This document shows positions 12,909 to 52,858 of a stretch of 64,000 nucleotides of DNA, piece after piece. Position 1 is the first letter of the stretch, and each line of letters opens with the position of its first letter. Under the pieces are notes generated by a model, which was given only the letters and a program-made list of their open reading frames with translations, did no database searches and had not been told where the DNA came from. The translations under genes and the position numbers were made by a program. The DNA is from Antitrichia curtipendula (taxonomy: Eukaryota > Streptophyta > Bryopsida > Hypnales > Leucodontaceae), in NCBI GenBank assembly GCA_951230915.1, contig OX579638.1, positions 19,858,696 through 19,922,695 of the forward strand, given 5' to 3'.

Positions 12909-13559
12909 CTCAGTTTACACAGTCTAAAATATGGCTTCTCAAATTTTGATTTTGGACAAGCAAGGTCTATATCCAGTGGGTACTACTAGGAAAATTGTAC
13001 AAGAGGGGAGTGGAGTACATCTCGAACTTCCTGTGGCACTGAATGTCCATTTTTGTCGTACGGATTCCGGAAATTCATACCTGCGTACCACTATTGCACT
13101 GATTTCATGCGTTAAAAAAATCCACGACTTTCGTGCGATTAATGTATTAGATTGATATGAATGGAAGTCGTGCCACTTCTGTATTATTGAATCATGCATT
13201 GTAATCGTGCAAATTTGACACTTTTGTACACCATTGTATCCGTGTATTTTCTTCATGGAATAAATGTTATTTTGCACAAATTTTAAAAATAATAATAATA
13301 AAAAAATAAAAATCTAAGATTTAAAAAAATAAATAAAAAATTAAAAAATCCAACCCCAATACTAGACTTGGGCGACCCCGATACCCGGGCATCCCACCAA
13401 CTAAGTGGGCAGTCGTGTTCGAACCCTTGACCTTCTAAATGGGAGATCAAATACTTATGGTCAGTACACCATGTTATAATTATTGTGTAATGTAGGAATA
13501 GAAATTTACTTGTATACTTCTTGCGATTTTTTTTTCATTTCATTTGTTAGTTCAGCAGA

Positions 13560-13880
13560 CTTTGGTGGCCGTTTAGGCATAGTAGAAATGTATTTTTCAG
13601 AAAACTTTGAAATAATAATAATTGTTAAATCAAGTCACATTCCATCTCCAAAAATCCGTTTTCAATTTTAAGTTTCCCTTAAAAAGTTATGGACAAAAAT
13701 CAGAGGGGGTGTTTAAAAATGTCAAAGAAAATTTCCATTTAAACCCTTCTCTGAACTTTGCTCATAACTTATGACTGGAGACTTAAAATTGCAAGAGGAT
13801 TTTTGGAGATACAATTTAGCTTGATTTTACAACTTTTTTTAGTTCAAAGTTTCTTAAAAAATGTTATTCTACTAAGCCTA
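13560..13880. repeat. ~320-bp foldback element, copy 1
   Basis: The sequence reads outward from a centre near 13720 as an inverted repeat (CCAAAAATCCGTTTTCAATT against its diverged complement near 13795). It is clearly related to the foldback at 47938-48270, which has the same words CAAAAATCCGTTT and GTTATTCTACTA. It is non-coding. Confidence 0.65.
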
Positions 13881-13989
13881 AACCGTCACCAAAGTGTACT
13901 GACTTTAAAAAATACGGGATTGTGAATGATCTAGTTTGAAAAGAAAATTCCATTTCACATAGAAATCCAACATTGGTGATTTTAACAAT

Positions 13990-15030
13990 GCTCAACTGAA
14001 ATGCCAAAAAATTATTTGAAAATCTTTGAAGTCAATATGAACAAAATGAACAAAAAAGTATTGATTTTTTGGTTGATGTAGACGTTGTACAATGGGGTAC
14101 AATTCATTTACAAATTGTCTATTGTGCCATTCCAATTTTGTTTGCATAGTATAGAGAAATTTTGGAATTTCTTGTCTTGCATAATTAATACTCAATTCTT
14201 ATGCAATCCCAATCAAGCATACCAAACTTGAGTTCTGAAAATGCAAAATTCTATTTCTGGTGAATTTTTTAAGCCAATTTGCATAGTTATACATGATATT
14301 TTATTGAAAACAATTGGTGATGATAATTCAATTGTATAGATATGTAGGAAACATTCATATGCACATCTTTCATATTAAAAAACACCCCCTTAAGTAACAA
14401 AAATATTATCTAGGACAAGTTCTATATGAGACGTCATATGACCAAACTTTGTAAAATAGATATTTTTATATTTCAAGTAGATTTTGGCAAAGTAATTGTA
14501 CCATCATATTCACATTTACAAAATTAGTCACAATGTGCGGGTCAAATAGCAAAATCTAGTTAAAACATATAAATATGTATTTGACAAAGTTTGGTCATGT
14601 ATTGCCTCACATTTAACTCTTCCTTGCTCATATTTTTGTTACTTAAGGGATGTTTTTTAATATGAAAGACGTGCATACGGATGTTCTTTATATATCTAAG
14701 CAATTGAATTAAAAAATTCATCACCAATTATTTTTTATAAAATATTACATATAATCATACAAATTGGCTTTAAAAATTCACCAAAAATGATATTTTGCAT
14801 TTTTTGGAACAGAAATTTGGTATACTTGATTGGAATTGCGTAAGAATTGAGTATTAATTATGCAAGACAAAAATTTCCAATTTTTCTCTATACTGTGCAA
14901 AGAAAATTTGAATGGCACAATAGGCAATTTGGAAATGGACTGTACTCCATTGTACTATCCGAATCAACAAATTTCTTTGACCATTTTGTTAACTTGTGCC
15001 AAATCAACAAAAAATTATAAAAGAAAGATC
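13990..15030. repeat. ~1-kb palindrome (long foldback)
   Basis: The left arm (about 13990-14500) is repeated inverted as the right arm (about 14520-15030). Matching words include AATTAATACTCAATTCTTA on the left with TAAGAATTGAGTATTAATT on the right, and GACCAAACTTTGT on the left with ACAAAGTTTGGTC on the right. The arms pair almost to the centre. The short open frames in the two arms are mirror images and are not genes. It could transcribe into a long hairpin RNA. Confidence 0.8.
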
Positions 15031-20193: not shown

Positions 20194-21528
20194 TCAAACA
20201 TAAGGTTCAAGAATCTTCACAATTTCTTCAAATGGCGGCCTCATTGAAGGATCCTTGTGCCAACACCTATTCACCAAATCCACCATCCAAGGTGTTGTTT
20301 GGTTAGGCAATATGGGCCTCGCACCACCAATTACACTGTCATAGTCATTTGCTCGTAGCTCTTCAAATGGCATACCACCTGATAAGATCTCATAGCACGT
20401 CATTCCAAAACTATAGACATCTGCTTGTTTGGTGAACAATTCTGGCTTTTGGAAAATATTCCGGTTCTTCACAACTTCTAATATTTCAGGTGCCCTCCAA
20501 AATCCCGTCCCCACAACCCCAACCGAGCATTCAAAATCTGCTACCAAGCAATAAAATTCATGTGGTTGCAATTGACTTAGATCTTGTAAAGTTACGAAAG
20601 GTATATCACCATTCTCCCCAAAGATCAATACATTTGCAGCTTTAAGGTCCCGGTGTATAATATCTCTTTCATGCAAACTTTGCATACCCATGGCAATTTG
20701 GTGAATGATGTAAAAAGCTACATAGTCTTCAAATGATTGGCCTTGGGTGTTGAAATGTAACATTCTTTCATCGATAAGCTTTCGCAAGTCCCCCCTAGCT
20801 CTAGCCATAAGAAAAGCAAATCTTCTAGAGGACTTCAATAATCGAGCACCCAATATAATGTTTAAATTATATGTGTCTTGTCTAAAGATGCCTTGAATGC
20901 ATGTTCCATCATTAGAGAGCATGGCAATGGGAAAGAGGTTGAGGAGGTCTCTCAATGGTGTCTCCTCCTTAAACACCTTCATAACCAAAACCTCTTTTTT
21001 CTCACCATCAATCATACAAATCACATGAGCATAGAAGAGTTTTGCTTGCCCTCCCTCCGCAAATGGAGTGTCGCTGCTCAACCCAAACTCCACATCCTCA
21101 GGAGTACCATCATCAGCAACCAACCACTTGGGTAACTGTTGACTAGAACCAGGTCCCAAATCGTTTTCATCAATGAAGAACCCTCCAGGATATTTCTCCT
21201 ACAGACTACGTAATACATGCATGTTGTCCTCTGCAACCTCTTGCTTCTACTCCAATGTTCCCTCTTCATTAACCCACTTTGGCAACAAGGAGGAACATAA
21301 GTCCAAGACTGGACCCTCCAAAGCTGTGTCGTAAGCACTTTTCAACTCACTCCAATGCACTTTGGATAATTCAATCTCCGCCCTCACCTTTGCTTGTTCA
21401 TCGTTCACATCCAACGTCTCCATGGCGGCCCTCACACTCTCAATATGCATTGAGTGAAACTTTGTAGAGTTTGGGGCTACATTTGGGTTGGGCTCATCAG
21501 CCATAGCTACTTTCTTGAAGAAATACAC
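20194..21528 (-). pseudogene. Serine/threonine kinase-like pseudogene (copy III)
   Basis: Read from 21528, codons 1-93 give the family N-terminus (from about 21507, MADEPNPNVAPNSTKF). In-frame TAG codons follow at 21247-21249 and 21199-21201; copy I has TGG and CAG there. An uninterrupted 321-codon frame (21159-20194) then carries a protein-kinase fold: lysine in VLVMKVF (residue 61), catalytic loop HRDLKAAN (169-176), WRAPE (221-225) and the C-lobe RCWHKDPSMRPP. The magnesium motif is DFE (208-210) instead of DFG, and the glycine loop is weak (AEGGQAKL), so even the parent may have been catalytically unusual. The frame opens with TTG, and its first ATG (21015) lies inside the N-lobe. It ends in a short acidic tail. 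With two stops it is probably inactive, unless an intron removes about 90 bases. Confidence 0.75.
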
Positions 21529-22191
21529 AACTTCTAGGCCCTTATCAAATGGAAGGCTTCCTTAGAAATTGCACAATCATTAGATGTGCTTCACAAGAAA
21601 CCACTTCATTTGGTGGAATGCGCATTATAACGAGGTAGGCTAACCACACCAAATTAGGTCCACAGAGGCAATTGAAGTTGAACTCACGAGAATAACCGGT
21701 GGGGTACAAGAAATGCTACCAAATAGACACCAAAACAAATGGCATCATAATATGGGAAGCAGACCAAACCTCAAAGAAGCTAACAAACAAAATCAAACGG
21801 AGAACACAACCGGTGCTAGGAATCAAAGCGCCTTTGATAGGAAAGTTGCATATAAGGAAGGAGAAGCTGAAACAGTGACAGCGCAAACTCCCATCGCCTG
21901 CTTGCATGTAACACTCTCAAGTGTTTAAGTCCTAGATAGAACGTTCCAAACTCACCTCCAATTCCCACAAGATGCCACAAAATGCAGCCTCCACGCCAAC
22001 CAAAGGCTTCGAACCAATCTCAGGAACTAGCGCCGAGCACCTGAAACAAAACGGGGATCGATCATGAATCAGTGACAGCCAAAGTGGCGTACAGACAGAA
22101 ACAACGAGGAGAATCGAGTTCACTTATGCTGGACCATCGCTTCAAACAGAAACTCACAAACAAATGAAATCGAGAACACAACCGATGCTGG
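21529..22191. repeat. 5' flank shared by the kinase copies
   Basis: The first part is collinear with 2640-2940 and 45485-45790 (for example AGAAACCACTTCATTTGGTG). The stretch to about 22060 matches the 3.55-3.72 kb and 46.4-46.56 kb parts of the duplication, with the intervening piece missing. Short open frames on both strands are not conserved. Confidence 0.55.
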
Positions 22192-25197: not shown

Positions 25198-25892
25198 AAC
25201 CAGACAAAGCAAGCAATGCCAAACCTAAAATGCGCTACAAGCAGAGCACACAAATTGAATAGTACACTAATCAGTGAAGTAGATTGCCTAAGAAATTAGG
25301 TTGTGTTATCCCAAGAAAAAATTACTACAAGCCATCAAAGCCAACAAATTCTTCTAGAGATATTTTCATTTGTACGCATGAATTTTGGGCTTTTTGAGAA
25401 CTTGGGCAAATTATATTGACTTCATAATTTGGAACTTTTGCATGGATTTTTTAGGTTGGATGCTCCTCATCATACATTACATGTTTTTTAGCCTATGTGG
25501 AGGACTGCAAGTTTCCCATGGTTCCTATACTCTAGAGTTGTCTAGAACTGCGCCACAGCAACTGCACGACGTGGCAAAGGGACTAACACATCATATAAAT
25601 TTATTTATTTTTCAAAAATATACAAAAATTTGTTCATCTTTTTAATTCATTTCAAAAAAAAAATTATTTTTCAAAAAAAAATTGTATCAAGAACTGTTCT
25701 TTTATTGCTGGGGGAACAACGTCGGAAATAGGCTCGAAATAACCCTCCAGACCCCCAAAAAACACATCTAATGATTTATTTGTGATCTAATGACCTATTT
25801 GTTTCATGTCATTTCAATAAATATTGCAAAAGTTAGAAGGGATTTTCAATTTCAATATCAAACCATGCAGCAAAAATATATGTTCTAACAAA
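25198..25892. other. AT-rich sequence, no feature recognised
   Basis: I see no gene or bounded element. An 86-codon frame (25385-25645) has no recognisable motif. Confidence 0.35.
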
Positions 25893-26860
25893 ATATTAAT
25901 AATATTTTTGGAATTAAGTAGATTGATACCTCTAAAAAGAATTGAACAATTGAATTCCAAATAAAGAGGTAAAAGTTATGAAATTTTTTATATTGCGGGC
26001 ACTACAGGTAGAAAAAACATATGAAGTTATCTTTTGCTCTCAATTTTCAAAATTTTCAAGTAAAAATTAAGGATATTAGTTGTTTATTGAAACAATATCA
26101 CCATTGGAATTAGCATTTCCCACTTTCTTCCAAAAGTTATTAGCATATTAGTTATATCTTTCGTTCAATAACACCTTCCCCTTTACAATTTAAAAAAAAA
26201 TGAATATGAAAGTCCTTTTTGTTGAAATTTTTATTATATATCGTCAACCCGTTTTCCAACATATTGACTAAAATGCACATGTTATAGGACATACATGTTT
26301 TCTCTTTAAAATGTTGAAACAAAAAATTTCACCTTTTAGAAGGACTAGAGAAACCTACATTTTGAAGTTTAGGCACATTGAACTTGCAATCAATGAAAAT
26401 ATGCACTCTAAAACTTTGAAACAATGTACTTGAACTAATTAATCAAAATAACATACGGTTGGTTTTGTTAGAAAATAAATATTGATGAAGATATTGACCT
26501 TGCTTTGGAGACAAGTATTTTGAAGTGTTTTTGGGCTTCTAAACGCAATGGTCCTTTAGGGGTTTAAAAGCAGTGTATTTTTGTAACAAAAAATATTGAT
26601 ATAGTATCAAATGTTGAGAGCTTAGTGTGGAGCAACCTAATTTTATTATTTAATATAATATAGACAAAATCCAAATAGATCCAATACAATTTGCAGCTCC
26701 TATTCTTATTTTTGTGCAAGGAAATGTTATGGAAGTAATTCCATGTATGTCACTAGTAGTAATAACACCTCCACATAGTTGCTATAATTCAACATTTATT
26801 ATTTTGTAGAAACTCATTGCCAATTGAAGGAGAACTCATTGGCAAGTGAAGGAATAATTT
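25893..26860. repeat. Dispersed repeat with intact (empty) TTAA site
   Basis: This is collinear with 29405-29840 joined directly to 40195-40735. At the junction it reads TCTTTAAAATG, with one TTAA at 26306-26309. The second locus has 10.35 kb inserted at this point. It is the key internal control for the nested CAND1/pogo structure. Confidence 0.85.
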
Positions 26861-29404: not shown

Positions 29405-29836
29405 ACAAGACATTAATAATTTATTTGGAATTGTGTAGATTGATACCTACTAGAGAAAAATTGAACCATTGAATTTGAAATAAAGAGGTAAAAGCCGTGA
29501 TGAGTTTTATTTTGCAGGCTTTAAAGGTAGAAAAAACATATGAAGTCATCTTTTGCTATCAATTTTCAAAATTCTCAAATAAAAATAAAAATTAAGGATA
29601 TCATTATATCAATTGTTTATTAAAACATTATCATCATTGGAATTAGCATTTCTCACTTTCTTCCAAAAGTTATTAGCATGTTAGTTATATCTTTCATTAG
29701 TAATACCTTCCACTTTATAATTTTTTTTAAATGAATATGAAAGTGTTTTTGGTTAAATTTTTTAATATGTATCTTCAACCCTTTTTTCAACATATTGACT
29801 AAAATGCACAAGTTATAGGACATACACGTTTTTTCC
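29405..29836. repeat. Left half of interrupted dispersed repeat
   Basis: It matches 25893-26305. The right half resumes at 40195 after a 10.35-kb insertion. Confidence 0.85.
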
Positions 29837-30505
29837 TTAACTCCTAAAGTCCCATTGTCCCTACAAGGGACAAAATGGATTTGGATAGGCTTGTTTAGCC
29901 TCAAATTGTATCACATATATAAGAAACTTTTATCCAAGATGCAGTTTTTGAAGGGCTTCAAGCACATATAATTTTTATGTGAAACGGACCTTTAATGCAA
30001 AAGTTATGTTATTTTTTAGTGAAAATGGGGGAGAGGGGGCTTGGGCAGGGTTTATTCCTTTGACTCTCTAAAGTTTGAGTTCCGGTCCAAGTTTGCAGGG
30101 CAGTGGGTTCTCGAAGGACGGAGAAGGGAGCAGATGGGAGGAGAAGATGGGATTGAGGGGAACAAATGGGGAATAAGGGGAACTTATGTGAACTAAATTT
30201 GTTAAAACTATGGCTTGTACTGTGACCACAGGCTTTGAAGTCATTGCTGTCCTTGTTGGGTAGCTTCATGAACTCGATTGGAACACGGGGAAAAATTGGG
30301 AAACTTTGGGAATAGGGGAACAAGTTGGAAACGGAAGAGTAACATCCCGGGCTATGTGGGGAACCAATTATTCAGGAGCTGCCCCATGTCTTGAAGCTCA
30401 CATTGAGTTACAAACTGACATAGAAACTAGAGATTTTTCAATTTTCAATTTTCAATTTTACTGTCTTGTTCATTACGATTAAGGTAAACCAGCCCATTGT
30501 GGTCA

Positions 30506-31200
30506 GAATTGCTATTGTACCATGTGAAAGGAGTTTGTAAATTCCGATAGTATTTTTCAAAGATAGCTAACCTTAGACAAAAGAGACAGCAAGTGAAATT
30601 GAAAATGTTGCACCCACCAAAAATTTGATATAAATTATACAAACAGCCAACCGTCATCCACCCAAGACAGCCAGTAGGTGGGGCCAAAAGCGTCAGATAC
30701 TGTCCTAATGCGGTCACTGAAGCTTCTTAATACCACTGACATTGGTATCCAATGGGATTTAGGACAATGCCCAATGCCCCCAAGTTTAAGTGGTTCAAGG
30801 TTTGCATTTCAGCCCATAATGGACAGCAAATAATCCTATTTCAGCCACCTGACTCACGCATTGTAGCCCTAATTACTATTACTACCGTTTTAAAAGATTC
30901 AATCTGAAATTCTGACAAGCCAACGGCTCCTACGCCACATGACAGCCTGGGACCATGTGGGAAGCTTGGTGCCATCGACCCGCACATCGTTGAGGCGGAT
31001 CCAGATTTGCACTTAGGGTTTAGTCGCTTCTCCTCTGCAGGCCGCCTTCCTACTAGTTGTCCCGCACTTCCCATCCCTACACTCTCCTCTCGATCTCTGA
31101 TCCTTTGAATCTTTCACCTTCTCATTTTGTTCGTGTTTGCTTCAATCTGCATCTTGTCCGTGTTTGCATAGCAGATTTTAAAAAGTATTCTTGTCCGTGT
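30506..31200. other. Leader region upstream of the captured CAND1 exons
   Basis: This is GC-richer from about 30840. It contains a pyrimidine-rich stretch (31020-31110) resembling a plant 5' untranslated region. I cannot find the N-terminal CAND1 exons here. It could be a captured promoter and leader fused to the downstream exons, or unrelated filler. Confidence 0.3.
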
Positions 31201-31225
31201 TTTGTTTGTAAATCGTCCTCATGGG

Positions 31226-34200
31226 AGGAAACAAGCCTTTCTATGCATGGATGCTCTTGTTATTTCCATTCTTGGAGATCATCTCAAGAAGGAGCTTGGC
31301 ACATGCTTGCCACTGTTGTTGGAGCGATTGCGCAATGAAATTACAAGACTTACAGCTGTTAAGGTTGAAGCTTCATTGACTCTGGATTTTATCGTCCTTG
31401 TCTGATCATAGCATGCTCAGACATTTTTGTTGACTTTAGCATGATACTATGTTTCTTTCTTTGACATAACTGTATTGGAATGCAGGCCTTTGCAACTATT
31501 GCAGAGTCGCCTTTGAATATTGACTTATCTTCAGTCTTAGAGCAAGTTGTTACGGAACTGACAACGTTCTTGCACAAGGTATGCATAGTGTAGAAACTCT
31601 TTCAGGAGCTATTCCTTGAAGTGCTTCACACTTGATTGTGGAAGATGTCATCTTGTTGCCATGATTTGATCAGGGCATGTTTGGACAGGCAAACCGAGCT
31701 ATGAGACAGGCCTCATTGGGCACATTGAATTCGCCGCTGACTGCTTACAACAATAAAATAAGTCCAGCCAGCTACAAATCCATTGTGATGGAGTTATCCT
31801 CTCTTATTAGGTGGGTAATCTATCTGAGATCTTTCTTCATTTGACCACCAAAGACATTGAAGTGCGCAGTAATTAGAGTGAAAATTGTCGCAGTCAAAAC
31901 GAAACATAGATGGTATAGCTTTCCCTGCGGCAAGTAACATTTTTTCAAAGGTTTCACCTGTAGCTTATGACTGAGTTCGAAGTCTTCAAAGGGCTTTTGG
32001 ATGTATGCAAGCCTTTCTGACAGTGCTTTTTTGTGACTGGTTTTGCAGTGACGTAGACTTGCACATGACAGCTTTAACATTGGAATTATGTTGCACCATG
32101 ATGGTTGATAAAAAACACCACTCCAATGCTGGTGCTGCTGTTAGGGAACGCGTTCTACCACAAGCACTTGTCCTTGTAAAAAGTTCTTTATTGCAGGGTC
32201 AAGCGTTGCAAGTAAGATTGCTAACTATTTTGAATCTGCAATGTGCCGATTATCTATCTAATGAACCAGTGTTTGATTATCGCGTAAAGGATGCCTAGGC
32301 TGATTGGTTATCTACATAATGTGCTGTCATTTTCTTCTTGTAAATACAAGATATGGTTCTGTCTAATGTGGGTGTGACCTGGGAAAACCTGGATGTCAGA
32401 CACTTCAAGCCTTTTTTGCGGCACTGGTACAATCAGCAAATACAAGTTTTGACACATTATTAGAAGCTTTACTTTCTACTGCAAGAAGTGCTTCTCTTGG
32501 TGGGCCTGCTAGCAAGCAGGCTTTCCATTCTACTGCTCAATGTGCGGCTGTATTGTGTCTGGCAGCTAGGGAAGCAATGTGCTCCCAGACTGTGAGCATG
32601 TTGGTTACTACTCTAAGGACTAGCAATGGCACGGATGCAGTAAGTTATAGACCTTCATACCTAGTCTTTGGTTCTCAATTATTGTTGCTTGCTTCAATTC
32701 TTCTTGATGCTTTAACAATTACTTTTGATAAATTTTGAAGGATTTGACATGCATGACAGTATGTTCTGCATTTTTGTAACGTGACTCTTGCTGCTCATAG
32801 ACCATTTCATTGTTCAATTTATTTTTTCATTTCAAATTCTCAATCACGTTAACTTATTGCAGACCCAGCTATTATCTTTATTGTGCCTTGGTGAAATTGG
32901 AAGAAGAAAGGACCTACGTATACACTCCAACATTGAAAGCGTTGTGATTAGATCTTTTCAGTCCCCATCCGAGAAGATTAAGGCTGCCGCGTCATATGCA
33001 TTGGGTAATATTGCCGTTGGAAACTTGACTCTGTATCTGCCTTTCATCCTCAACCAAATCGACCGCCAAGCAAAACTTCAATATCTACTTCTACATTCCT
33101 TGAAGGAGGTAAAAATCTCTTCTCTCTTCAAACAATTTATTCCTGTTGTTCATTTCATTGTGAGCTGTGTTGATTTTAAAGGTTGGTTCCAGATCATAGC
33201 ACGCCAATCTATGGATGGTGAAGCAAAAGGAAATATAGTTCTGTAAGACGCAGATGTTCAGAAGATCCTGAGTTTGTCGTTTACACATTGCGAGAGTGAA
33301 GAGGAAGGGGTTCGGAATGTCATAGCGGAGTGTCTGGGAAAGTTGGCGCTTATCGAGCCTGAGAAATTGGTGCCTGCTTTGAAGGTTGGCCCTGCCTTTT
33401 CTATATTTCTGAGTTAATTGGAGTCTTGTTGCAATTATTACTATTTTCTGTTGCTTTGGCTGATATTTATCTTGATCCTGTATTTAAGCACCTTTTGATG
33501 CATGTCTGTCTGATATCGTTTCAGGAACGCGCAGCGAGTCCCTCAGCTTATACTAGAGCCACAACGGTTATTGCGATTAAATATACTATTGTCGAGCGAC
33601 CGCAACCTATTGACTCTTACGTTAAGTCATGTATCTCGTCGTTTTTGCTTCTCATCAAGGATGAAGACAGGGTAAGATTTTTCTGCCTCTGTTGAACAGA
33701 AAAATGAATATTGTTCGAATGATTAGTGATTTGAGATTTTGCAAACGAATCTAGGAAAGCTTGTGTGGCTTCTCAATAGTTGTTGTAGTCTTTGCAGTAC
33801 GCTGTGAATCGCATGGCCATGCTGAAGTGCTCATGCTTCTTGTTTCTCTAATTAGAGCTTGATCAGGAGCTTGATGTGTGATATGTGTTCCAGTATGATC
33901 CGGAATTGAAAATTCTCACGTATGGATAATAATGCAGCATGTAAGGAGGGCTGTAGTGTCAGCTTTGAGTACGGCAGCGCACAACAAGCCTGCACTGGTG
34001 AAGGAATTACTGCCTACATTGTTGCCACTCCTCTACGACCAAACAGTAGTCAAGGTGCATCAACTCACTCTAGATCTATGTTTTTCCGGTACTTGGGGAT
34101 TGCTTAGTCCCTGTTTGGTTGGTTCTTTGCGCTTTTCATCTGTGAAGATAAAAAATTGGAATGACTCTGAGTAATTGCTCGCTAATCTTATCGCTCGAAT

Positions 34201-35095
34201 GTGCAGAAAGAGTTGATCAGAACCGTGGATCTTGGCCCTTTCAAACATATTGTGGATGATGGTTTGGAACTCAGAAAGAGAGCCTTTGAATGTGTGGATA
34301 CCCTGCTCGACAATTGCTTAGACAAGATTGATCCTTCACTTTTCATCACCCCTCATCTGTTGTCTGGTTTAGCAGGTCTGTCCTTGGGTCTCTGATGATC
34401 AATGTTTTTGCTTATGAATCCATCAGCAAGGCATGTGCACAAGATGTTTCAGATTGCGGGCTCGAATTGAAGTTATATGTGGTAATGTAGTACATCAAGT
34501 TTATAGTACATATTGGATTCAGAACAAATAATGTTACCGCTTTCTGTTGTTTGTGCAGATCACTATGATGTGAAAATGCCATGCCATCTCATTCTATCGA
34601 AGTTGGCTTCCAAGTGTGGGGGTGCAGTTTTAGCCGGTAAATTCTGACTTCTAGCTTCTAATCGAGAGACATATCCAAGTTTTTGATTGCTGGTTTTGCC
34701 TCGATTTGACGGGAATGCAAGTAACAACTGGCGTATTGCCAATGTTAGTGAAATGAAGTACAAAGTGACTTTTTTGATACAATGATGGATGCGCTTGTCG
34801 AGCCCCTGGAGAAGACAATCCAGCACAAGACAAAACCCGATGCTGTGAAGCAAGAGGTAGACCGCAATGAGGACATGATCCGGAGTGCTCTTCGTGCAAT
34901 TGACTCTCTAAACCGGATAAGGTAGGTCTTCAAGTCCTATTCAATTTCTATTTTTAGCTTCAGGAGAGAAGACAAAGATGTGAGGTGACGGAAACAAGAA
35001 CCTTTGTTATCGGGTCTAGAATGCTTCTAAGTGTGCATTTGGTGATGTTTACAAGATTGATGAATCCCAGAACTGTAGCCTGGGATCGTTGTTGA
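31226..35095 (+). pseudogene. CAND1: CAND1 (cullin regulator) C-terminal fragment
   Basis: Thirteen exons encode about 640 residues matching the C-terminal half of plant CAND1, a HEAT-repeat protein of about 1,220 residues that binds cullins lacking NEDD8 and exchanges SCF adaptors. Exon ends: 31363; 31486-31578; 31689-31810; 32049-32211; 32400-32639; 32863-33108; 33193-33384; 33525-33671; 33938-34054; 34207-34375; 34559-34636; 34783-34921; about 35020-35095. Signature stretches are [49 protein letters not shown] and DRNEDMIRSALRAI. Phases fit across junctions. Two lesions are visible: an in-frame TAA at 33244-33246, and AA instead of AG at the acceptor before 34783. The N-terminal half is absent. 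The first exon start and the last exon are approximate. It lies inside the pogo-like element, on the strand opposite the transposase. Confidence 0.85.
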
Positions 35096-36228
35096 ACCTT
35101 TACTTTAAGGTATGCTGATCTTGGTGCCATTTTCCAAAAGAATGTTGTTATTGTTAGCAGTTGTGGAAAGAGCAATTTTATACTCAACTCTAATAAATGA
35201 GTTTCATGCATTCTTATTTTCTGCTAACATATAATGATAGGATACAATTTGTATTAATGGATTTCAAAGTCGATTGCTGTTAATTAGAAGTGACTGAGCA
35301 ATTTCATTCAAAGATCACAGATATTTAGCAAATTCCTGCTTACATCACTTGCAAATAAGTCCAATCAAATTTTGCTAATGGATTAGTTGGTTAGTACACA
35401 AGATGAAATCAAATTTCCAAAGGTTTCATAATCCTCTCTTGCTCTACCTATTTGTTACGACTCATATAAGTTTCTTTCTTTCTCTCCTTCAAGTGCATGG
35501 TGTGCCCAAGACAATTTGTATTAATGGATTTCAAAGTCAGCTCTAATGAAGAAGAATCACGTGGGTCTCTCAGCAATTTATGAGCAGTCCTGCCATATAT
35601 TGGTGTTGTATCTTGGTTAAGCAAGATATATACATTAGGAAGTGATCTCTAGTGGTGAGATGCCTACACTGATAAGCAAGAGGTTTTTGTACAAGATTAT
35701 GTGTACATTATGCAATTTGATTCATTCCTGTGATTGTTGTCTTTAGAGGCCACGCACAATAATTTGTCTCTTTAAAATTATATCTGTGAATAGTTGTAAC
35801 ATTGAAGACATAAGGTAAAACAAATTCAGTATAATTGTTTTATAATTTAAGACTTTTTACTGCTCTAACAAAGCGTTGTAAGAGAAATTGACAGAGTACA
35901 ACAATGAATAAATAGGAGAAAATAACAAAATGTGGAGAGATGAAGTATTTGATTGTCAGCAGATTCTAAAATTCTCACTTCCATATTGTTTGTTGTTGAG
36001 AATGTGCAAAGATTATGTATATCACAATGAATACAAACTAAACCATAGACTTCTATATTGTATGTTAGGCCTAGTGTTAAAGGTTGAATTATAATGTTCA
36101 CAGAACACATCAATAGAAACACTTTAGAAAATTGTCTTTCTTAAAAGGCCTAGGCTACTTTAGACAGTTTAACTTGATTGATTTGTCTATGTAGGCCCCT
36201 CTCCCATTGCATGTTGATGAAGAACTGC
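35096..36228. other. Spacer between CAND1 fragment and transposase
   Basis: No gene is recognised. A word of about 29 bp (ACAATTTGTATTAATGGATT and following bases) occurs twice, near 35243 and 35510, as a local direct repeat. Near 35815 TAAGGTAAAAC partly resembles the element end but matches only about eight bases, so I do not take it as a second terminus. Confidence 0.4.
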
Positions 36229-39200
36229 TTACATCAAAGGAACTGCTGGATTTGTTCTTGCAGCTTGAAAATTGATGCTGCCACTGTTGTAATTTGCTTC
36301 TTGCTCTGAGTATGGGAGTTGAACAGCTATCCCCCTTCTAAGGTATGATCCTCCTCCAAGTGTGTTTGGACATTTCCAAGTTCCGTATGTCCAAGGCAAA
36401 TGTTGAATTGGAGGAAAGAGTGGAAGGGGAGTACCATGTGTTTGTAACCTCCGTTTTGCTCTTAGTCTTTCAATTGCAATTTTCTGATTAGACTTGCATT
36501 CTTGTGGTTGATAACCATAGTGGGGGGCCACATAGATACTCACCACAACATGCTCCCTGATGTTCTTGTGTAATTTTTCTCCTGCCTCCTTCACTGCTTT
36601 ATTTGACCATTGTTCTTTGAATGTCTTCAATGCAGTTCTTTCTGCCTTCTTCTTGAACTTGAAGGCTTCCAGTTGCAGCTTTTCTTCAAACTTCTTCAAC
36701 TTGGTGAGTTCCCTTTCTGCCTTTTTTCTTTGGATTTCTTCCAATGCCTTGCTCTTCTTTTCTGCTGCAGCTGTCACACTCTCTACATGTTGGGTGCTTG
36801 TCAAGATATGAGATGAAGAGTAGTCTATTCTAGCTTCACTATAAATTTTTTTTGACTTCATCACTTTTTGAGGTAATCTAAGGAATTTAGAGTAATGTTC
36901 TTCATTGGTATCTAGAGAAGCCTCTACATGATTTGTACAGACATCTTGAACATGAACTTCATCCTCCAAATCTACATAGTAATGAATCATGTTTTCTTGT
37001 GTGCTAGGTACATCTTCATCCATGATTTCTTGAATTTGGACATCTAGAGGTTTATCCACAAACCCTTCACTTGGTCCCATTTTTTTGTTGACTCTTGATG
37101 GATCTAGTGGCCAAATTCCAGTAGCTGCAAAACCAGATTTGATGTTTGCAGATGTCATTGCTTTTTGTAACCCTAGACTAACCCACTGAGCCAAGTCTTC
37201 TTTTCTAACATTTTGTCCCCTGTTTTGCATGTTCCAAATGTCTCTGTAGGCTTTGAAGGCTGTCTTGAAGGGCTTGAAAACAGAAACATCAAGGGGCTGA
37301 AGTGCATGGCTAGTGTGTGAAGGTAAGGAAACCAAATCTAACCCAGCTGCCCCTGCTTTTTGAATGACTTCCAAGGTGACATGGGAGTTGTGCCCATCTA
37401 ATACCATCAAATGTCTTTGGGTTGGACTCAAATTTCCTTTTTTTCCCACATTAGCAAGGAAATGATCCATCCACTTAGAGAAAAGGAAAGAAGTCATCCA
37501 TGCATTAGGTTGCATTGCCATAGTAGCATCATTTTCACATAGGCTCACATAATCCCTCATCCTATATAATCCCTTGAAGATGTAGAAGTTGGGAATTGTT
37601 TCTTCCCCTGCATTTATGGCTGATAGAACTGTTATGGACTCTCTTTGATTAGCCACTAATGAGTGAATTGTTTTGGTTCCCTTTTTTGCAAGGACCCTGC
37701 CTCCTCCTTTTCCAGCTTGGGTGCCACTTTCATCTGCATTCCAGATTTGATCTGGAGAGTAGGCATGTTTGGAATACATAGTTGCTAAATTTTCATAAAA
37801 AGTTTTGACATGGGGTGGACACAATCCTTAGGCCCTATTTACTTCCAAACCTTGTGCAACTCTAAGAGTATATTGTGGATTCCTTTTTTTGAACCACTTC
37901 AGCCAACTATCTCCAGGTATACCATTAGTAAATGGATTTGGTCTTTCTTGGACCATCTCAGCCACCTTTTCTTTGAGATCTTTGGTAGTTAGTGGAAGGC
38001 CCCAAGCTACCATGTTGTCCAAATATTTCAAGAGGGCTGCTTCTTCATTTTTGCTGAGGGTGCCTTGTCTTCCTCTTTTTCTTGATGTCCTCTTCCCATC
38101 AGCATGATTTACTAAGCTTGTTCTAGGTATTTTGTAAAATTCACTAACTTGTTGGATTTTGTGACCATCTTCTATTGCTTGGATTGCTAATTGGAGGGCT
38201 TCATCTGTCCAAGTTCCTCTTGCAGCTGTAGAGGTTTTTGTCTTTTTAGGTATTGACATCTTTTGAGCAACATCTATCAAAGGTCTCACAGAAGATGGTG
38301 GTTTGATTACCTCTTCTGTTCTTGATGCTTGCCTTGTGTTGTGTGTAGGATGACCTATGTTGGCTCCTTCTCCTTTGCTCCACAATGCCTTGCTTGTTGG
38401 TTCTCCAATCTCCAAGTTTAATTTGCCTTTCTTGTATTGTTGTTCTTCTTCATTGCCACTGCTGCCAGGTACATCTGGAAATGTTGGTATTCTTCTCTTC
38501 CCTTCCTCTGTTTTCTTGGCTGAAGTAATCTTCTTCTTGGCAGCCTTTGCTTGAATTTCTTTCATTTTGCAGAGGTCACCTTCATTTTCTTCACCATGGA
38601 CACTTGATTCAGAACTAGTGGACCCTTCACTTTTCCAACTTCTGTTGTAAGACCTCTCACTACTACTACTCTCTATGTCTGAGTTATTGTGTTGGCTAGA
38701 ATTGCTTGTTTCAAAAAAAGCTTTTGCCTCTAATATGGCTTTTCCTCTTTTGAATCTAGTACTACGACGTAGTGTCACATCTTCTCTTTCTTCAAGAGCC
38801 TTAACTTCTTGCAACTTTGGGTTGGATTGTATTGTAGTTTGCTGTGACTTCATTGTGGCAAGTTTTGGCTGGAACTTGGAGCTGTATTGCTGATCTTGTT
38901 CAATGCTCTTGCTCAAGCATACTGCTGGTGGTTGTAGGTTGTGAAGTTGGCCCTCCTTTCTTGAAGCATGCTGCTTAGACGTTGTAGGCTCTTCCTCCAT
39001 TTTTGGTGTAGAAATTGCATGCTGCATTCTCCTTCCACCAAGAACTCAAACTCCCCTCTGATATGCTCTAGCTGAATCTGGAATACCAAAAATGTCAATT
39101 AGTAGCTCTTCATACTCTTCTTCTTCACCTAGATAGCCTTGGTCCTCACTTTCTTCTTGTGAACCACTATTGTTGTTCAAGCTGTAGTACTCAATCATCC

Positions 39201-39309
39201 TCATCATCAACTCTTTCATACAAATCTTTGCTACTAGATGTAGCCATTGTATTCTGTGTACCAATATTCTACTGCAAGATTGTACTTTTCTAAACAAGAA
39301 TGTTGCCAC
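36229..39309 (-). pseudogene. pogo/Tigger-family transposase pseudogene
   Basis: One reading frame runs from 39309 to 36229 and is broken by TGA at 39046-39048 and TAA at 37828-37830. Order: an acidic leader (39309-39046); a ~265-residue serine-rich region from ATG 39027; a psq-type helix-turn-helix (RGTWTDEALQLAI); a CENP-B-type DNA-binding domain (DSWLKWFKKRNPQYTLRVAQ); then, past the TAA, the DDE domain. Catalytic aspartates are visible in WNADESG, VLDGHNSH and LQPLDVSVF, with 35 residues between the last two (DD35D). A lysine- and glutamate-rich coiled coil and a proline-rich tail follow. All DDE residues are kept, and the TAA lies precisely between binding and catalytic halves. It could once have mobilised this element and the AGGTA-ended MITEs, but now needs readthrough or is dead. 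Confidence 0.85.
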
Positions 39310-40198
39310 TCAAAACAAAACACTCACTTCTTCACTACCGAATTGCAAAGGGTGCTAGCAACTGCCCCACTTAACTCTAATGGTGGTCTAATTCGGTTTT
39401 TCTTCAACCTTGGAGCGCCAATTCTCAACCCAATTGTCATTTTTCAATTCCCAATGCGGTAACACTGACAGCTTAATGTGACCTTTACTTCAATACAAAA
39501 CCATCGTTTTACCTCTTTCATTGGATGTACTTTTGATGTATACCAAACATAAATGAGGTGTAATACAAACTATTTTTTGTTGAAAACGGTTAATTATTTT
39601 TATGAATGATTTGTACTTTTTTGACTTGCCTCTGACCGAATTGGGGCCTGATTCTAGGTGACCGGAATAGGCGAAATGACCACAATGGGCTGGTTTACCT
39701 TACTTCAATCTACTGTTTGGATTACTAGGTTTTTGAACTATGTGAGTGGAAAATGTGTGCAAAAATTGGACAATGTATTGTCAAATCTTGAAACATAGTC
39801 GCATTGCAAGATTTTTTTAATATGTTTCATGTCTTAGATTGACTTGAAAATTGGTAGATGTATGCTTGGCAAGATATTGATTATGGAAAAAATTAAATTT
39901 GTTGTTCATAGAGTAAAAATTGATCACAAGAGGTGGTCAAAGTCATCTGAAATTTTTGGATAAGGCCCCTCCAAAATAAAAGTTGTCACTTTAAATGCAA
40001 TTATCCTTAAATCTATGCGGTCAAATTACATAAATTTTTTACCACATTATCTCATATAGACTTAGTACAAGATCCTATGGTTACATTTTGGAAAAATTCA
40101 TCTTGTGCGTTTTTTCGATCAATGCATTAAAAATGGCAGTTTTCAGTGTTTTTTGAGGCAGAAAATCCTAGGAAATGTCTTGGGACTTTAGGGGTTAA

Positions 40199-40735
40199 AA
40201 TGTTGAAATACATAATTTCACCTTTCGGAAGGACTAAAAAAACCTACATTTTGAAGTTTAGGCACACTGTTGAACTTGCAATTGGTGAAAATATTCACTC
40301 TAAAATTTTGGGACAATGTACTTGAATTAATTAATTAATTAATTAATCAAAAGATCATACAATTTGTTTTATTAGAAAATAAATATTGATGAAGATTTTG
40401 ACCTTGCTTTGGAGACAAGTATTTTGAAGCGGTTTTGGGCCTCTAAACGCAATGGTCCTTTAGGGATTTAAAAGTAGTGTATTTTTGTAACAATAAATAT
40501 TGATATAGTGTCAAATGTTGAGAACTTAGTGTGGAGCATTCTAGTTTTACTATTTAATATAATATAGACAAAATCCAAATAGACCCAACACAATTTGCAA
40601 CCCCTACTCTTACTTTGGTGCAAGGAAATGTTATGGAAGTAATCCCACGTATGTCACTGATAGTAACAACACTTCCACATAGTTGCTATAATTCAACATT
40701 TATTATTTTATGGGATCTCATTGGCAAGTGAAGGA
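40199..40735. repeat. Right half of interrupted dispersed repeat
   Basis: It matches 26310-26860 (for example CATTTTGAAGTTTAGGCACA and CTAAACGCAATGGTCCTTTA), completing the repeat begun at 29405. Confidence 0.85.
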
Positions 40736-40961
40736 GGACTCTAATGCATTTTAGAATGCATTATTTGGTTCCATGTATGAAAAAGTTGTAAATTTACATA
40801 GTTTTGTTTATAAGTATATCCAAATTGATTGCCTCTCAATTTTGGATTGTGCACATCTTGTTTAATCAATATCTAATCGTTGTGTTGCTTTTTTGTTCCA
40901 ATGCATGTGATATTGTTTTGAAACTTGATTATAGGTGCATGTATCTTACTGAGAACTATAG

Positions 40962-43234: not shown

Positions 43235-46200
43235 AGACAATATTTTCCATCTTTTCATGTTAGCACATAGTATTCTTTGCTTCTAGACATTTTGAATTCA
43301 ATTTAGGAATCACCTTTCATTCATTGATGCCATCCTCTTTTGTTCTATTAATATATAATCCAATATTATCTTTTAAACATAAATTCTACAATGGTGGAGG
43401 CAAACGATCTTAATTTCTATCTTCTTTATAGTGATTGCAACACTATAAAACTCTTTGTTAATAAAATCAAAGGTGAAGCCATGTATTTTTAGAACATCCT
43501 AATTTTATTTGAGAATTTGAATAAAGTGAAAAATATTTGGAAATTCTTATAAGGTCTTGAACATTTAGTTCAAAAAAATATTCATACAATGACAAAACTA
43601 TTTTAAAATAATAATCATACTTTGTAGATAGACTTTTTGATAATCTATTGATTTTTTATTATTTATTTTGCAAAGATGTAATACTTGTCATCTATAAGTC
43701 ATAAACTTTTTTATTATTTTGATGAATATTTGGAATTTCTATGAAACAAGATTCATATCAAATGCAAAATATGCTCTAAAATTCTAAAATTTCCTATATA
43801 TATAACAATAATAATAAAAACAACAATTATTATTGTTATTATATTATTTTAGAACATCATGATGTTGAAAATTGTTTACCATGTCATTTGAAAAATAAAA
43901 AAATAAACACCTCAAGGTAATAGGCCCAATATTAAAATTGCTAAGAAAATTATTCAAAATGTTAGTAGGTCCAAAGCTCCTACCCTCCTGAAATCCTTAA
44001 AAAGCCATTGCAAGACATCAAACCTTTTAGGTTGAGTGAAATCCATTTTAGGACTAAGAAGAAAAACAACTCATGCATTCCATCATCCTATTGCCAGCCA
44101 AGGAAAAGTCTTGGAGTTCTTGTTGTTTCGTAAGTTGTATTTTGGATCATGTTGGACTTTGAACCAAATTCGTTAAATACAAATACTAAAGTAGGATTTA
44201 TTTCTTGAAGAAAAGCAGAATGAAGATAGATTTTACTTCCGATTTTATTCCCCAATTTGAAAGCAAATAAGAATATCGCCACGGATTTCATATTGAAAAT
44301 GAGATGAAACCTTTGACAAATTCTTTTAAAAAGTACAACAACATTATTGAACCTTGCGGTACGGGGATTTCTGCATCCCACGAGCTTCAAGGTAAAAGAC
44401 TTTTTGCCGTTTCCATGAATCATGACCCCTTTTACAATTCAAAATCTTGAATGCAAACTTAGCTATAAAATGTGCTTCAATGGAAGAAGATTTTTTTTTT
44501 GTTGTAGTAACATTCATTAGTAGAAGGACTCACCAACCTTTCTATTCAAAATTGTTAGGACCCTATACATGTGCTCTAAGGTCTAGATTAATCAATGGAT
44601 AATTTTATTTTTTCTAATTTTTTCTTAAATGAATGTAAAGGTAAAAAAATATTTTTTCCAACCAATGCATGCACGTTGATATCCATGTCATTCTATAGCT
44701 CCATACACATGGCTATACATGATAAATATTGATTGTAGCAAATAAACTAAGATAATCAAAATTTAAGGTGATGTTAGACATAAATCCAAAGAGTCTCCCT
44801 CTCCATCATATACATTTAATTCTTCCTCTAACTTCCTAACTTCTCCTCAACCTTCCTAGTGTCTTCTCTAGACATCCAAAATTATTCTTCACACATCCTA
44901 ACTTCTTCTTTTGCATTCTTGTATTCATACACATAATGTTTAATAATCTTCATAATTTCTTCAAATGGTGGCCTCATTGAAGGATCCTTGTGCCAACACC
45001 TATTCACCAAATCCACCAAATGGAGTCGCACTGCTTAAAACAAACTCCCAAACCTCAGAAGTACCACCAGTACAATACATCCACTTGGGTAATTATTGAA
45101 TAGAATCAAGTCCCAAATCATTTTCATCAATGAAAAACCGTCTAGGATATTTATCCTGCGGACAACATAAAATATGCACGTTGTCCTCTGCAACCTCTTA
45201 ATTCCACTCTGATGTCCCCTTTTTGTTAACCTACTCATGTTGAGAGGTGGAACACGAGTCCACAACTAGATCCTCTAGAGTTGTGTCAGAAGCGCTTGCC
45301 AACTCACTCCAATGCACTTTGGATAATTCAATCTCCGCCCTCACCTTTGCCTGCTCATCATTCACATCCAACATCTCCATGGCGGCCCTCACACTCTCAA
45401 TATGCATTGAGTGAAACTTTGTAGAGTTTGGGGCTACATCTGGATTGGGTTCATCAGCCATGGCTACTTTCTTGAAGAACACACGGCTTCTAGGCCCTTA
45501 TCAAATGGAAGGCTTCCTTAGAAATTGCACAACCATTAGATGCGCTTCACAAGAAACCACTTCATTTGGTGGAATGCGCATTATAACGAAGTAGGCTAAT
45601 GACACCAAATTAGGTCCACAGAGGCAATTGAAGTTGAGTTCACGAGAATAATTTGTGGAGTACAACACATGCTACCAAATAGACACCAAAACAAATGGCG
45701 ACATAGTATGGGAAGCAGACCAAACCCCCCAAAAGCTAACAAATAAGACCAAATGGAGAATACAACCGGTGCTAGGAATCAAACTCGAGGAGTTCACTTA
45801 GAGTATCCATTAGAAACCACGTGCGAACAAAACTTTGGACTCCATATATACTTTTTGAAATTTAAATATAAATAAATAAATAAAAATAAGAATAGATTTT
45901 TCTACTTTGAAATTTTATGTTTTGAATAATTGATATTTTATTTGTTAATCATAATTAGTTACAAATTTTTGAAGTAAAAAGATGCACTGGAGAACTGAAA
46001 AAAATAACTTTCACACCCCTATATTATATTAAAAAAAAAATTCTAAAAGATGAACAAAAAAATTCTAAAAATAACTCTCTATTGAAAGCTCATTTTGAAT
46101 TGAATATTGAGTCAATGGTCATCTAAATGTGTTCTCTATAATTATTTGAGTTGAAGAACATGTCATTTTAATTCATTTTCAACCTCTTCTAGAAATCATT

Positions 46201-47340: not shown

Positions 47341-47937
47341 AACCCAACGGAATCTCCGGTTGGTCCGGTGGGTGCGATTCTTCGCCAGTTAAGCCTTCGT
47401 TAATTTCTTTGTTATGGTAAGTCACTATTGGTGACTATGCAGGCTTGGCACACATAACATAAGCAGAGTCTGCCTTCCCTCTGACAGAATGGTGCCGAAT
47501 ATTCGGCACCATCAGTAGCTAACAAACACGCGTCGAAATTTGTCTGACGAACTCTGTTCAGAAGCAAGCAAGAGGGGGTTGGTGAACAAACTAGAGAACA
47601 CTCAAGGCTAACCCAAGCTGGGTTACTAAAAAATAATGCACTCAACCGGGTTAGTAAAAAAATTGCACTTAACTAGGTTAGCAACAGAATAAATATTTTG
47701 AATAAAATTTTCAAGATAAAAGCATTAAACTTTGAACTCTAAGTTGCAATTTCCTCTCAACATTTTGAAAGCCACTCGATTCATGACTTTACAATGAGAA
47801 GACAACTCTTTACATACATATGGGGTGTTAGGAGGTAAAACAAACAATGTGGGACATATAAATTAAAATTAGTAGGAGCTCAATCACTCATAGTTAAGTC
47901 AAATTAAAACAAGAATTGTATTTAAAATAGAATTTCA
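47341..47937. other. Gene-derived debris and AT-rich sequence
   Basis: 47341-47420 resembles a piece of the 27.9-kb segment (GGTGGGTGCGATTCTTCGCC). A 77-codon minus-strand frame (47412-47645) is not recognised. Confidence 0.35.
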
Positions 47938-48270
47938 GACCTCATTTAGTCATAGTAGAATAACTTTTTTCAAAAAAATTTGAACTAAAAAAAGTTAAAA
48001 CATCAAGTTAAATTGCATATCCAAAAATCCGTTTGATATTTCAAGCCTCCAATTAAAAGTTATAGATAAATTTCAAAGAGGAGTTGGAAGGGACGTTTTC
48101 TTTTACATTTTCAAACATCCTCTTTGAATTTTGTCCATAACTTTTGATTGGAGGCTTGAAATATCAAACGGATTTTTGGAGATAAAATTTAAATTGATTT
48201 AACAACTTTTACTTGTCCAAAATATTTTGAGAAAAGTTATTCTACTATGACTAAATAAGGTCTAAAATTC
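47938..48270. repeat. ~330-bp foldback element, copy 2
   Basis: The arms TAGTCATAGTAGAATAACTT and AAGTTATTCTACTATGACTA are exact complements at the ends. CAAAAATCCGTTTGATATTT pairs with AAATATCAAACGGATTTTTG further in. It is the same family as 13560-13880 and non-coding. Confidence 0.82.
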
Positions 48271-48755
48271 TACATCAAACATGATTTTTACATTTTGACA
48301 ATGAGTGGTCAAGCTCTCATTTTCAAATTATCCCATATCCTTTGAGGAATCATGATTGACAATTGATTTCAATATAAAAATGACAGCTCCAACCTTCCAT
48401 ACTACAAATGTCCTTATCGATCCATCAAAATTATTTTTGTTGGCTAATTAGGATAAAATGACATTGGGATAGGGTTTTCAAGATTCTCGGCAAATCATCT
48501 TAAGAATTTTGATGGCCCAATTTGAATTGTTTGGCTGGTTCAAGGTTTTGCAAAAAGAATAGTGTACAGAAATCTGCTGCCACGATCTTGGTGGTGGGTA
48601 CTGAAACTTACTTTAATTCTCAGATTGATGTTTTTTGTGGATGAGGCCTCCAAAGAGGAAAAGGCAGGCTCTCTGAAGGCTACTGAATGTTATGCACTCA
48701 TGGGCAGAGTTTCGTGACAATTTTGCATTACGGCAGACGAACCATTTCCAACCAC
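48271..48755. other. No feature recognised
   Basis: The last ~70 bp (CTCATGGGCAGAGTTTCGTG and following) also occur before MITE A at 4.5 kb and near 28.21 kb, so this is part of a dispersed unit. No gene is seen. Confidence 0.35.
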
Positions 48756-48759
48756 TTAA

Positions 48760-49702
48760 TCCTTAAAGTCCGCCGTTGTCCCTTCTGGAGACAAAATGGA
48801 TTTTGGGTAGGCTCCTATGGTCTCAATGTTTGTTGTGATTCTTTGAATTTTTTTTTTGAGAAAATACAAAAAATATATTACTTTTCCAAAAATATAATTT
48901 TTATTTCAATCGGAGTTCGGGAACAAAAGTTATGCCACAAAAGAGTCCTTTTTTAAAAGAGTTTAGAAGGCAAAAAAAACACCTTCAAGAGTACTTAAAA
49001 GAGATTATTTTAAATTTTTTGTTCATTTTTATAGATTATATTTTTATGTACATGGAAAGCTTTGATGCATTCCACTAGGATTTGTTATGTGAAAGTTATG
49101 AACAATCTTGTTTTTCGGGCAATTAGAGCATTTTCTTGGAAAAATAACTTGTAGGATTCATTTCAGACTTCAATTTTCACAATTTTTCAACAAAAAAAAG
49201 TTTCACAAGGTGAAGATCTCTTGCTTGAACAATCTCACTATTGAGATTAGTATATTTCAATTCCATCTTAGAGTCATTAACAATTTAGGTTTTCGTTCAA
49301 TCTTGACTCTATTTCTACTTAACAATTTTTTATTGAATGAAAACTAAGTGTGAGTTTTTTGAATTTTTTTCCTAGGCTCTCAACTCAATTCTTTATCATA
49401 AGAAACTAGATTTTCAAAATCAATAGAGTAAAAATTATAAGTTATAAAGGTTCAAAGCCAAAAAATGTAGTTGAGCAAGGTATAAAAAACTTGTTTCCTA
49501 CACTTTAAATGCAAATATCTTGCAATCTACATGGTCAAATTTTGTGAAATTTTTCCCATACATTTTCATATTGTTCTAGTACAAGACGATATAGAAAAAT
49601 ACGCAAAAAAAAAAAACATTTTAAAACATTTCTTGCTCTTTGCTATAGAAATGGTAGTTTTGAGTGGATTTTGATGGAAAAGAAGTCTTGGGACTTCAAG
49701 GG
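48760..49702. mobile_element. 943-bp piggyBac-type MITE
   Basis: It starts TCCTTAAAGTCC after TTAA (48756-48759) and ends GGGACTTCAAGGG before TCAA (49703-49706, one base off TTAA). It is the full-length relative of MITE A and of the piece at 59515-60550. No protein is coded. Confidence 0.75.
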
Positions 49703-51762: not shown

Positions 51763-52692
51763 ATGTCGTCACAAATGAACGTGAAGGAGGCCGGAAGGGC
51801 AGCTGCCAAATTCAGACTTGCGTTGCGAAGCCCCGGCACCAAGCGACGAGTGAAGCGGAAGATGCAGGCTGTGGCGACACAAAATGTAGCCGAATTGGAG
51901 CGCCGACCTGTGGCAACCGAGAATGCTGGGGCAAGTCCAACGAGGTGTTTGGAGCCACTGTCGCCGCAAGGAAGATCTACGTTGCCGTCGCTGCGAGGGA
52001 GACTACTGGTGGGCCACCAATCCCCAGTGGATCCAATTTGCACAGATGCAAGCGACCGCGGTGGTATACAGTCTCCTCCACGGATGAATCAGACCACTCC
52101 ACCACCGGGACCTCAGCACATGGTGCAATTCACGGAAGACATATCAAGAATGAATCCAGCTTTAGGGATGAATTCACAGAAGGGGAGGGGTCGGGGACGA
52201 GGGCGCAAGGGTCGAAGAAGGAACGAACATCCTCTCATGCCGGATCCGAAAGCATGTAGTGAATTAGAAGAGGGGAGCCTGCGCGGCCATGGAGGGGCCC
52301 GGGGTAGATTAGGCCGAGGAGATGGAGTGAAGAATGCTAGAGGAAGGGGCAGAGGAAAAGGGAAATTACAGAAGATGCCCAAATTTTTTATTATGCCACC
52401 CGGTTGGGTACCACCACTCATCGGATTGGAGAATCATGTTTCTCCACTGACTTTGAGGCCCAGCACGCAGAGGCGAAGGGTGGTACGCAACCTCATAGAT
52501 GCTGTAGATGCTGCGGTGCTTGCTCATGGCGCACATAGTCTCACTAGATTGGAAGGACACGGGAGTGACAGCACCGATAGTGACAAACACAAACCGCACT
52601 TGAGAATGTCATTGAGCCCTCGCGATTGTAAGGAAGCTCCTCAGCTATCGCAATGCAGTAACAGAAAGAAAGCGATTGCTTGTAAGCAATGA
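51763..52692 (+). CDS. RG-rich open frame upstream of the transposase
   Basis: This is an ATG-initiated frame of 309 codons inside the piggyBac element. Its middle is rich in arginine and glycine (GRGRGRGRKGRRR, residues about 143-155, and GRGRGKGKLQK), resembling nucleic-acid-binding RG tracts. The first third is basic, and the end is serine-rich. It ends at 52690-52692, shortly before the transposase frame, which is shifted by one. No family is recognised. It may be an extra element protein, or a 5' exon of the transposase joined by splicing or a lost frame. A further in-frame stretch (51336-51638, then on to 51760) lies upstream in another frame. Confidence 0.35.
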   Translation: MSSQMNVKEAGRAAAKFRLALRSPGTKRRVKRKMQAVATQNVAELERRPVATENAGASPTRCLEPLSPQGRSTLPSLRGRLLVGHQSPVDPICTDASDRGGIQSPPRMNQTTPPPGPQHMVQFTEDISRMNPALGMNSQKGRGRGRGRKGRRRNEHPLMPDPKACSELEEGSLRGHGGARGRLGRGDGVKNARGRGRGKGKLQKMPKFFIMPPGWVPPLIGLENHVSPLTLRPSTQRRRVVRNLIDAVDAAVLAHGAHSLTRLEGHGSDSTDSDKHKPHLRMSLSPRDCKEAPQLSQCSNRKKAIACKQ

Positions 52693-52858
52693 TTCGGCAG
52701 GGTGGTATACAAGTTGCGATTTGGAAGACTGCCTACACGAACGAAGATCTGTGCTGGGTCTCAACAGTTTGAGCGAATGGGAAGACGGACCAACACAACT
52801 AGCGAGTGTGCAACCAACAATTCTAGGACTGAGTCCTACCTCGAATGGAGGCACGGCC

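Follow-up and report, generated by a model that had tools for sequence, protein, structure and literature searches.

A probable pogo-family transposon with an intron-bearing CAND1 gene fragment, lying inside a TTAA-ended element of the moss Antitrichia curtipendula

Transposase and CAND1 sequences at the locus

We have analysed a stretch of 64,000 nucleotides from contig OX579638.1 of the moss Antitrichia curtipendula (the whole stretch is called the window below), in which an earlier, sequence-only reading had placed a pogo/Tigger-like transposon carrying about half of a host CAND1 gene. Between positions 30482 and 39700 we observed directly 2 inverted ends, a transposase gene and a CAND1-derived cargo, and in the same window a paralogous stretch that lacks the larger insertion surrounding them. 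The features on which the argument depends, and the evidence by which each was delimited, are as follows.

29837..30481, plus strand: left arm of the TTAA-ended element (TTAA at 29837-29840); its outer part, to about 30040-30065, aligns to 59520-59318, 4679-4901, 48756-48934 and 57461-57321
30480..30481, no strand: left TA flank, from the sequence; target-site duplication with the TA at 39701-39702
30482..30505, plus strand: left terminal inverted repeat of 24 bp, agreeing with the right end at 24/24 bases
30506..31235, no strand: non-coding stretch from the left end to the first recognisable CAND1 exon, promoter- or 5' leader-like by eye only; no match elsewhere in the window by self-comparison
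31236..34921, plus strand: putatively captured CAND1 fragment, the C-terminal half of the gene, with 12 exons and 11 introns (84-266 bp); exon delimitation, Pfam, protein comparison and tblastn
34922..36228, no strand: AT-richer stretch (GC content 0.34), perhaps the CAND1 3' end or 3' flank plus element sequence; composition and a 28-bp direct repeat
36229..37827, minus strand: second open piece of the pogo transposase, 532 residues, with the catalytic domain DDE_1, of DD35D type
37828..39045, minus strand: first open piece of the pogo transposase, 405 residues, with the DNA-binding domain HTH_Tnp_Tc5; an in-frame stop (37828-37830) precedes the second piece
39046..39309, minus strand: extra open piece, 87 residues, in the same frame, upstream past another stop
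39677..39700, minus strand: right terminal inverted repeat, 24 bp; sequence and mismatch scan
39701..39702, no strand: right TA flank, from the sequence
39703..40198, plus strand: right arm of the TTAA-ended element (TTAA at 40195-40198); 39704-40198 aligns to 8172-8658 at 66%
25888..26837, plus strand: paralogous stretch without the insertion, matching 29405-29840 joined to 40199-40741; single TTAA at 26306-26309

The transposase gene runs on the minus strand from 39045 to 36229, adjoins the right end and is interrupted by one in-frame stop. Its 2 main pieces matched the Pfam domains HTH_Tnp_Tc5 (4.4e-7) and DDE_1 (2.5e-20), and the catalytic triad of 3 aspartates is complete, with 35 residues separating the second from the third. 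The extra 87-residue piece had no Pfam match, and the further N-terminal helix-turn-helix (HTH) domain PF05225, annotated in some transposase relatives, was not matched here at E up to 0.01. Judged from its sequence, the element is assignable to the pogo family, as had been proposed, on 3 counts: an HTH/CENP-B-type DNA-binding domain joined to a DDE domain, the spacing of the three-aspartate (DDD) triad, and short terminal inverted repeats with a TA duplication. DD35D is listed for pogo groups 33-40 in PMC7325037. The best of 115 protein matches to the transposase showed 53% identity over 92% of the searched part; the search scored only the 7993 candidates that shared most words, and no close relative was found among those. 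In viral contigs, 42 pattern matches to transposase relatives were obtained, with 0 confirmed, a result of little weight in a collection of this kind.

The cargo occupies 3.7 kb. When read as spliced, it aligns with human CAND1 over residues 591-1183 out of 1230 (1u6g chain C, 5e-149), so that the proposal of about half a CAND1 gene, introns included, agrees well with what we observed. All 11 introns begin with GT and 10 of them finish with AG, the exception being intron 11, before exon 12. Exons 1-11 share one reading frame, broken by a single stop at about 33244 in exon 7; read from 34783, exon 12 carries on the frame of exon 11 with no stop. Where the earlier reading gave about thirteen exons, we count 12; a thirteenth (last) exon, sought in 34922-35251, was not convincingly found. 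A Pfam scan of 6 open reading frames (ORFs) in the CAND1 frame detected the TIP120 domain in 1 (5.4e-22) and no domain at all in the other 5. The first tblastn match for 2 CAND1 query proteins (P0001 from Diphasiastrum, and P0002) begins at 31175, 61 bases upstream of where exon 1 was set to begin, and is 54-55% identical along its full length; the exon 1 start at 31236 is therefore not for certain the exact left breakpoint. The CAND1 piece, on the plus strand, and the transposase, on the minus strand, converge tail to tail, and between them lies a perfect 28-bp direct repeat (35244-35271/35511-35538).

We compared the cargo with its relatives in a search whose length rule kept full-length CAND1 proteins out of the listing. 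The most identical among the 120 listed of 395 CAND1 matches was a metagenome protein (P0046, 84.0% over 362 aligned residues), and P0001 showed 78.6% identity over 608. Viral contigs gave 50 pattern matches to CAND1 relatives, with 0 confirmed. As a crude proxy for selection, we counted the departures of the cargo from invariant columns in a set of 15 homologues chosen by hand from the 120 listed (170 columns, each covered by at least 8 homologues and invariant among them), and observed departures at 9 of 170; 6 of these homologues, treated alike, departed at 5/175, 3/173, 7/125, 2/133, 0/170 and 4/174. With its 9 departures the cargo falls near the top of this range, which would suggest that constraint on it has been only slightly relaxed, without fixing its age. 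Because of the one stop and the one lost splice acceptor, the cargo reads as a pseudogene.

The surrounding TTAA element and the ends of the pogo unit

Self-comparison of the window showed that 29405-29840 and 40195-40741 both match one continuous stretch, 25888-26837, located 3.5 kb upstream. The joined flanks are 85% identical to it (836/981), and it contains one TTAA, as against one at each end of 29837-40198. The best reading of these sequences is that 29841-40198 was inserted here, as 10.36 kb of DNA that duplicated a TTAA; that the 25888-26837 stretch instead lost it by precise deletion would be a less likely explanation. A TTAA (piggyBac-type) element is expected to show a duplicated TTAA and an uninserted site, and both are present in the window. 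With up to 3 mismatches allowed, the window contains 13 sites of the end motif TTAACYCCTAAAGTCCCA, 2 of them the element's own, as compared with 0.15 expected, and the arms show homology at 62-69% to other places in the window (the left arm, in its outer part, to 4 other TTAA-ended places, the right arm to 7). By these sequence comparisons, the pogo unit sits inside a TTAA element. Two further observations concern TTAA elements in the window: the segment 4679-8658 resembles another such element (left end 4679, right end 8658), perhaps enlarged by nested insertions, and an ORF at 52616-54706 (697 residues, DDE_Tnp_1_7, 1.3e-75) encodes a piggyBac-type transposase, a mere candidate for acting on these TTAA ends.

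Since the 85%-identical stretch with its single TTAA is without the insertion, the comparison argues strongly that CAND1 was brought in by inserted DNA. An alternative would be that CAND1 is a resident gene or a local pseudogene around which transposon ends lie by chance, as might be suggested by exons that are still in order and by introns of which 10 of 11 keep GT..AG borders. This is contradicted by the paralogue, from which the whole stretch is missing; the stop in exon 7 and the absence of an acceptor in intron 11 also speak against it, as does the failure to find the N-terminal half of the gene. The sequence-only reading had singled out nearby N-terminal exons as the sign of a gene belonging to this locus, and tblastn with 6 CAND1 proteins, 3 of which (P0002, P0011 and P0023) extend far beyond the cargo part on its upstream side, found none in the 64 kb, all matches to the upstream part having E values of at least 1.9. 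We hold a resident gene to be hardly credible.

The inverted repeats that had been described at the ends of the 9.2-kb unit are exact (24/24 bases, or 26 bp with the TA included). Within 3 mismatches of the 24-bp end, these are the only 2 sites in the window, and 0 were found in 100 shuffles. At the right side, homology to the TTAA copy at 8172-8658 begins at 39704, the second base past the right TA; the alignment of 39704-40198 to that copy thus supports the right border, as read from sequence, independently of the pogo unit's own ends.

We also considered whether 2 separate pogo copies could flank a CAND1 pseudogene, their inner ends having later been deleted so as to mimic one element. Copies of the same family could share identical ends, TA flanks are uninformative on this point, and the left border is without homology support. 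Against these considerations stand the identity of the ends at 24/24, the position of the unit between the arms of an inserted TTAA element that the paralogous stretch lacks, and the lack of any remnant of an inner end: the best internal match to the 24-bp end is 15/24, inside the shuffle range of 14-16, so that a second element would have had to lose its inner end. We regard 2 separate copies as improbable, and infer that both terminal inverted repeats belong to one element. The question raised in the sequence-only reading, whether the repeats belong to separate elements, is in this way answered in part: identical ends, no inner end and a right border close to the start of homology favour one element, whereas the left border lacks comparable support.

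Origin of the unit and other repeats in the window

Taken together, the observations make it likely that 30482-39700 is a single inactivated cut-and-paste transposon of the pogo family (DD35D), which between its ends carries a genomic, intron-bearing CAND1 fragment in addition to its own adjacent transposase gene, and that it lies inside a TTAA-ended (piggyBac-type) element. For this one locus, capture of part of a gene by a pogo-family element that is now dead is well supported.

Several points weigh against it. The TA duplication carries little information. The inner left arm (30040-30481) shows no convincing match to any TTAA copy, and the left border is thus without support from homology. 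Among 6 candidate places in which homology to this segment was sought, none was found bar one weak match, of 30385-30445 to about 5505-5564 inside the apparent TTAA unit 4679-8658; its score was 44, where 20 mononucleotide shuffles reached 39 at most, and the match was too weak to be used. Beyond position 8171, the copy at 8172-8658 fails to match the left arm (score 43, as compared with shuffle maxima of 35 for the whole arm and 58 for the inner part), so that this copy does not serve as an uninserted site of the pogo unit. The composite unit was seen as one copy only, in a 64-kb window, and its movement is therefore our inference. Exact scans for a second 24-bp end in a viral contig collection, and for the 22-bp core of the end in a genome contig collection, each gave 0 matches; a plant copy would be unexpected in either, and because these collections are viral or prokaryotic, the null scans carry little information and little weight.

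Also to be set against the interpretation are 3 weak, AT-rich inverted pairs (12-19 nt, 79-92%, no shuffle control) that bracket the cargo.

30620-30638/35355-35373: weak inverted pair 1, 79%
30631-30642/35838-35849: weak inverted pair 2, 92% over 12 nt
31118-31131/35924-35937: weak inverted pair 3, 86%

Such pairs could speak for a nested origin, in which another vector, a Helitron, a Mutator-like element or similar, took up CAND1 before it landed in a pogo element. Helitron and Mutator-like elements are among the classes that the sequence-only reading named for gene capture in plants, capture by several superfamilies with terminal inverted repeats is published (PMC8903248), and the segments 30506-31235 and 34922-36228 are without an assigned origin. 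The pairs are short and imperfect, however, and we take them, with no control run, for chance occurrences in AT-rich DNA. A scan of both strands of 30482-36300 for a Helitron-type 3' end with a perfect stem found 0; shuffled sequences (60 shuffles) gave a mean of 0.18, so that 0 is also the chance expectation and the scan has little power. Decayed ends could in any case evade both scans. A nested vector around the cargo is unsupported, and we consider it decidedly improbable.

As to how a single pogo-family element may have acquired the fragment, the cargo would have entered as DNA rather than from messenger RNA, since its introns are kept. Repair of the gap left by excision, with template switching, has been proposed for other DNA transposons; the likeliest route here would be such repair, with switching into the CAND1 locus. 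Alternatively, 2 neighbouring ends may have jointly mobilised the DNA that separated them. Once the fragment was in place, the 9.2-kb unit would have moved like any element with 2 good ends, its own transposase binding both and inserting the unit at TA, and inactivation of the element would have come later. Activity of the transposase or of the CAND1 piece is unlikely, to judge from their reading frames, because both genes now carry stops.

A bolder possibility is that a moss harbours a pogo lineage which, with its transposase kept, time and again collects and spreads multi-kilobase, intron-containing gene pieces, and that some copies still yield small RNAs, or a C-terminal CAND1 in truncated form, with an influence on the control of cullin ligases; we see in this a rather slim prospect. 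If further copies exist, the locus would be a good test case for the mechanism of capture, because the outer TTAA insertion and the uninserted paralogous stretch give the order of events.

Other repeated sequences were observed in the window. A direct repeat of 4.1 kb (413-4505/43239-47341, 89.6% identical) may represent a gene duplication or a further mobile unit. Parts of its copies (2084-2942 and 44931-45783) have additional matches at 20198-20285 and 21060-21827, in the region of an ORF that resembles a kinase (20197-21198). The top matches of this ORF are metagenome proteins, and its best named matches are from the mosses Ceratodon (51%) and Physcomitrium (47%), which makes a moss host likelier than the lycophyte first suggested by the CAND1 match to Diphasiastrum. 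Long imperfect palindromes, each matching its own reverse complement at 71-82%, lie at 14087-14955, 7304-7927, 13552-13902 and 47928-48272.

Comparison with known systems

The features shared with DD35D groups of the pogo family, which is placed in Tc1/mariner or as a superfamily of its own, are the HTH_Tnp_Tc5 and DDE_1 domains, the DD35D spacing, short terminal inverted repeats and a TA target (PMC7325037). The element described here differs in its length of 9.2 kb and its host-type gene fragment; pogo elements of a fungal plant pathogen measure 1.9-2.9 kb in one size table of PMC4994206. Pogo gene capture does not appear in the accessible portions of PMC4994206, PMC12550479 and PMC9033089, and a literature search of titles and abstract openings, with most subscription journals outside its scope, met no description of a plant pogo element with a host gene fragment, which does not prove that none exists. 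With respect to piggyBac-type elements, the likeness is in the TTAA at both ends of the surrounding unit and the end motif at 13 window sites; we read the TTAA element as a landing site and not as the vehicle of capture.

The sequence-only reading had called gene capture by a pogo/Tigger element unusual. This needs to be softened in view of Pack-Mariner elements, which occur in rice and maize, and of a cargo-bearing Tc1/mariner element in the fungus Pyrenophora tritici-repentis (PMC8903248 and PMC3538342). Transduplication is reviewed in PMC8616336. In PMC8903248, Pack-TYPE gene capture in flowering plants covers CACTA, hAT, PIF and mariner-type elements, and Pack-TYPE elements are defined as non-autonomous, those with a transposase match being classed separately. 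The likeness to Pack-Mariner would be that of a gene fragment between the terminal inverted repeats of a mariner-kind element; here the fragment lies between two matching repeats that probably belong to one element, of which only the right border has support from homology. Unlike Pack-TYPE elements so defined, the present one is not of the non-autonomous kind, since it keeps a (broken) transposase gene. The Pyrenophora tritici-repentis elements (PMC3538342) are fungal and multicopy with ORF cargo, whereas the moss cargo is a 3.7-kb fragment with 11 introns, seen in one copy. By analogy with these systems, a pogo element with a captured gene fragment is best regarded as a variant on a known theme, with Pack-Mariner and transposase-bearing cargo elements as precedents; a pogo element that retains its transposase beside an intron-bearing half of a gene would broaden the range of known gene-capture vehicles.

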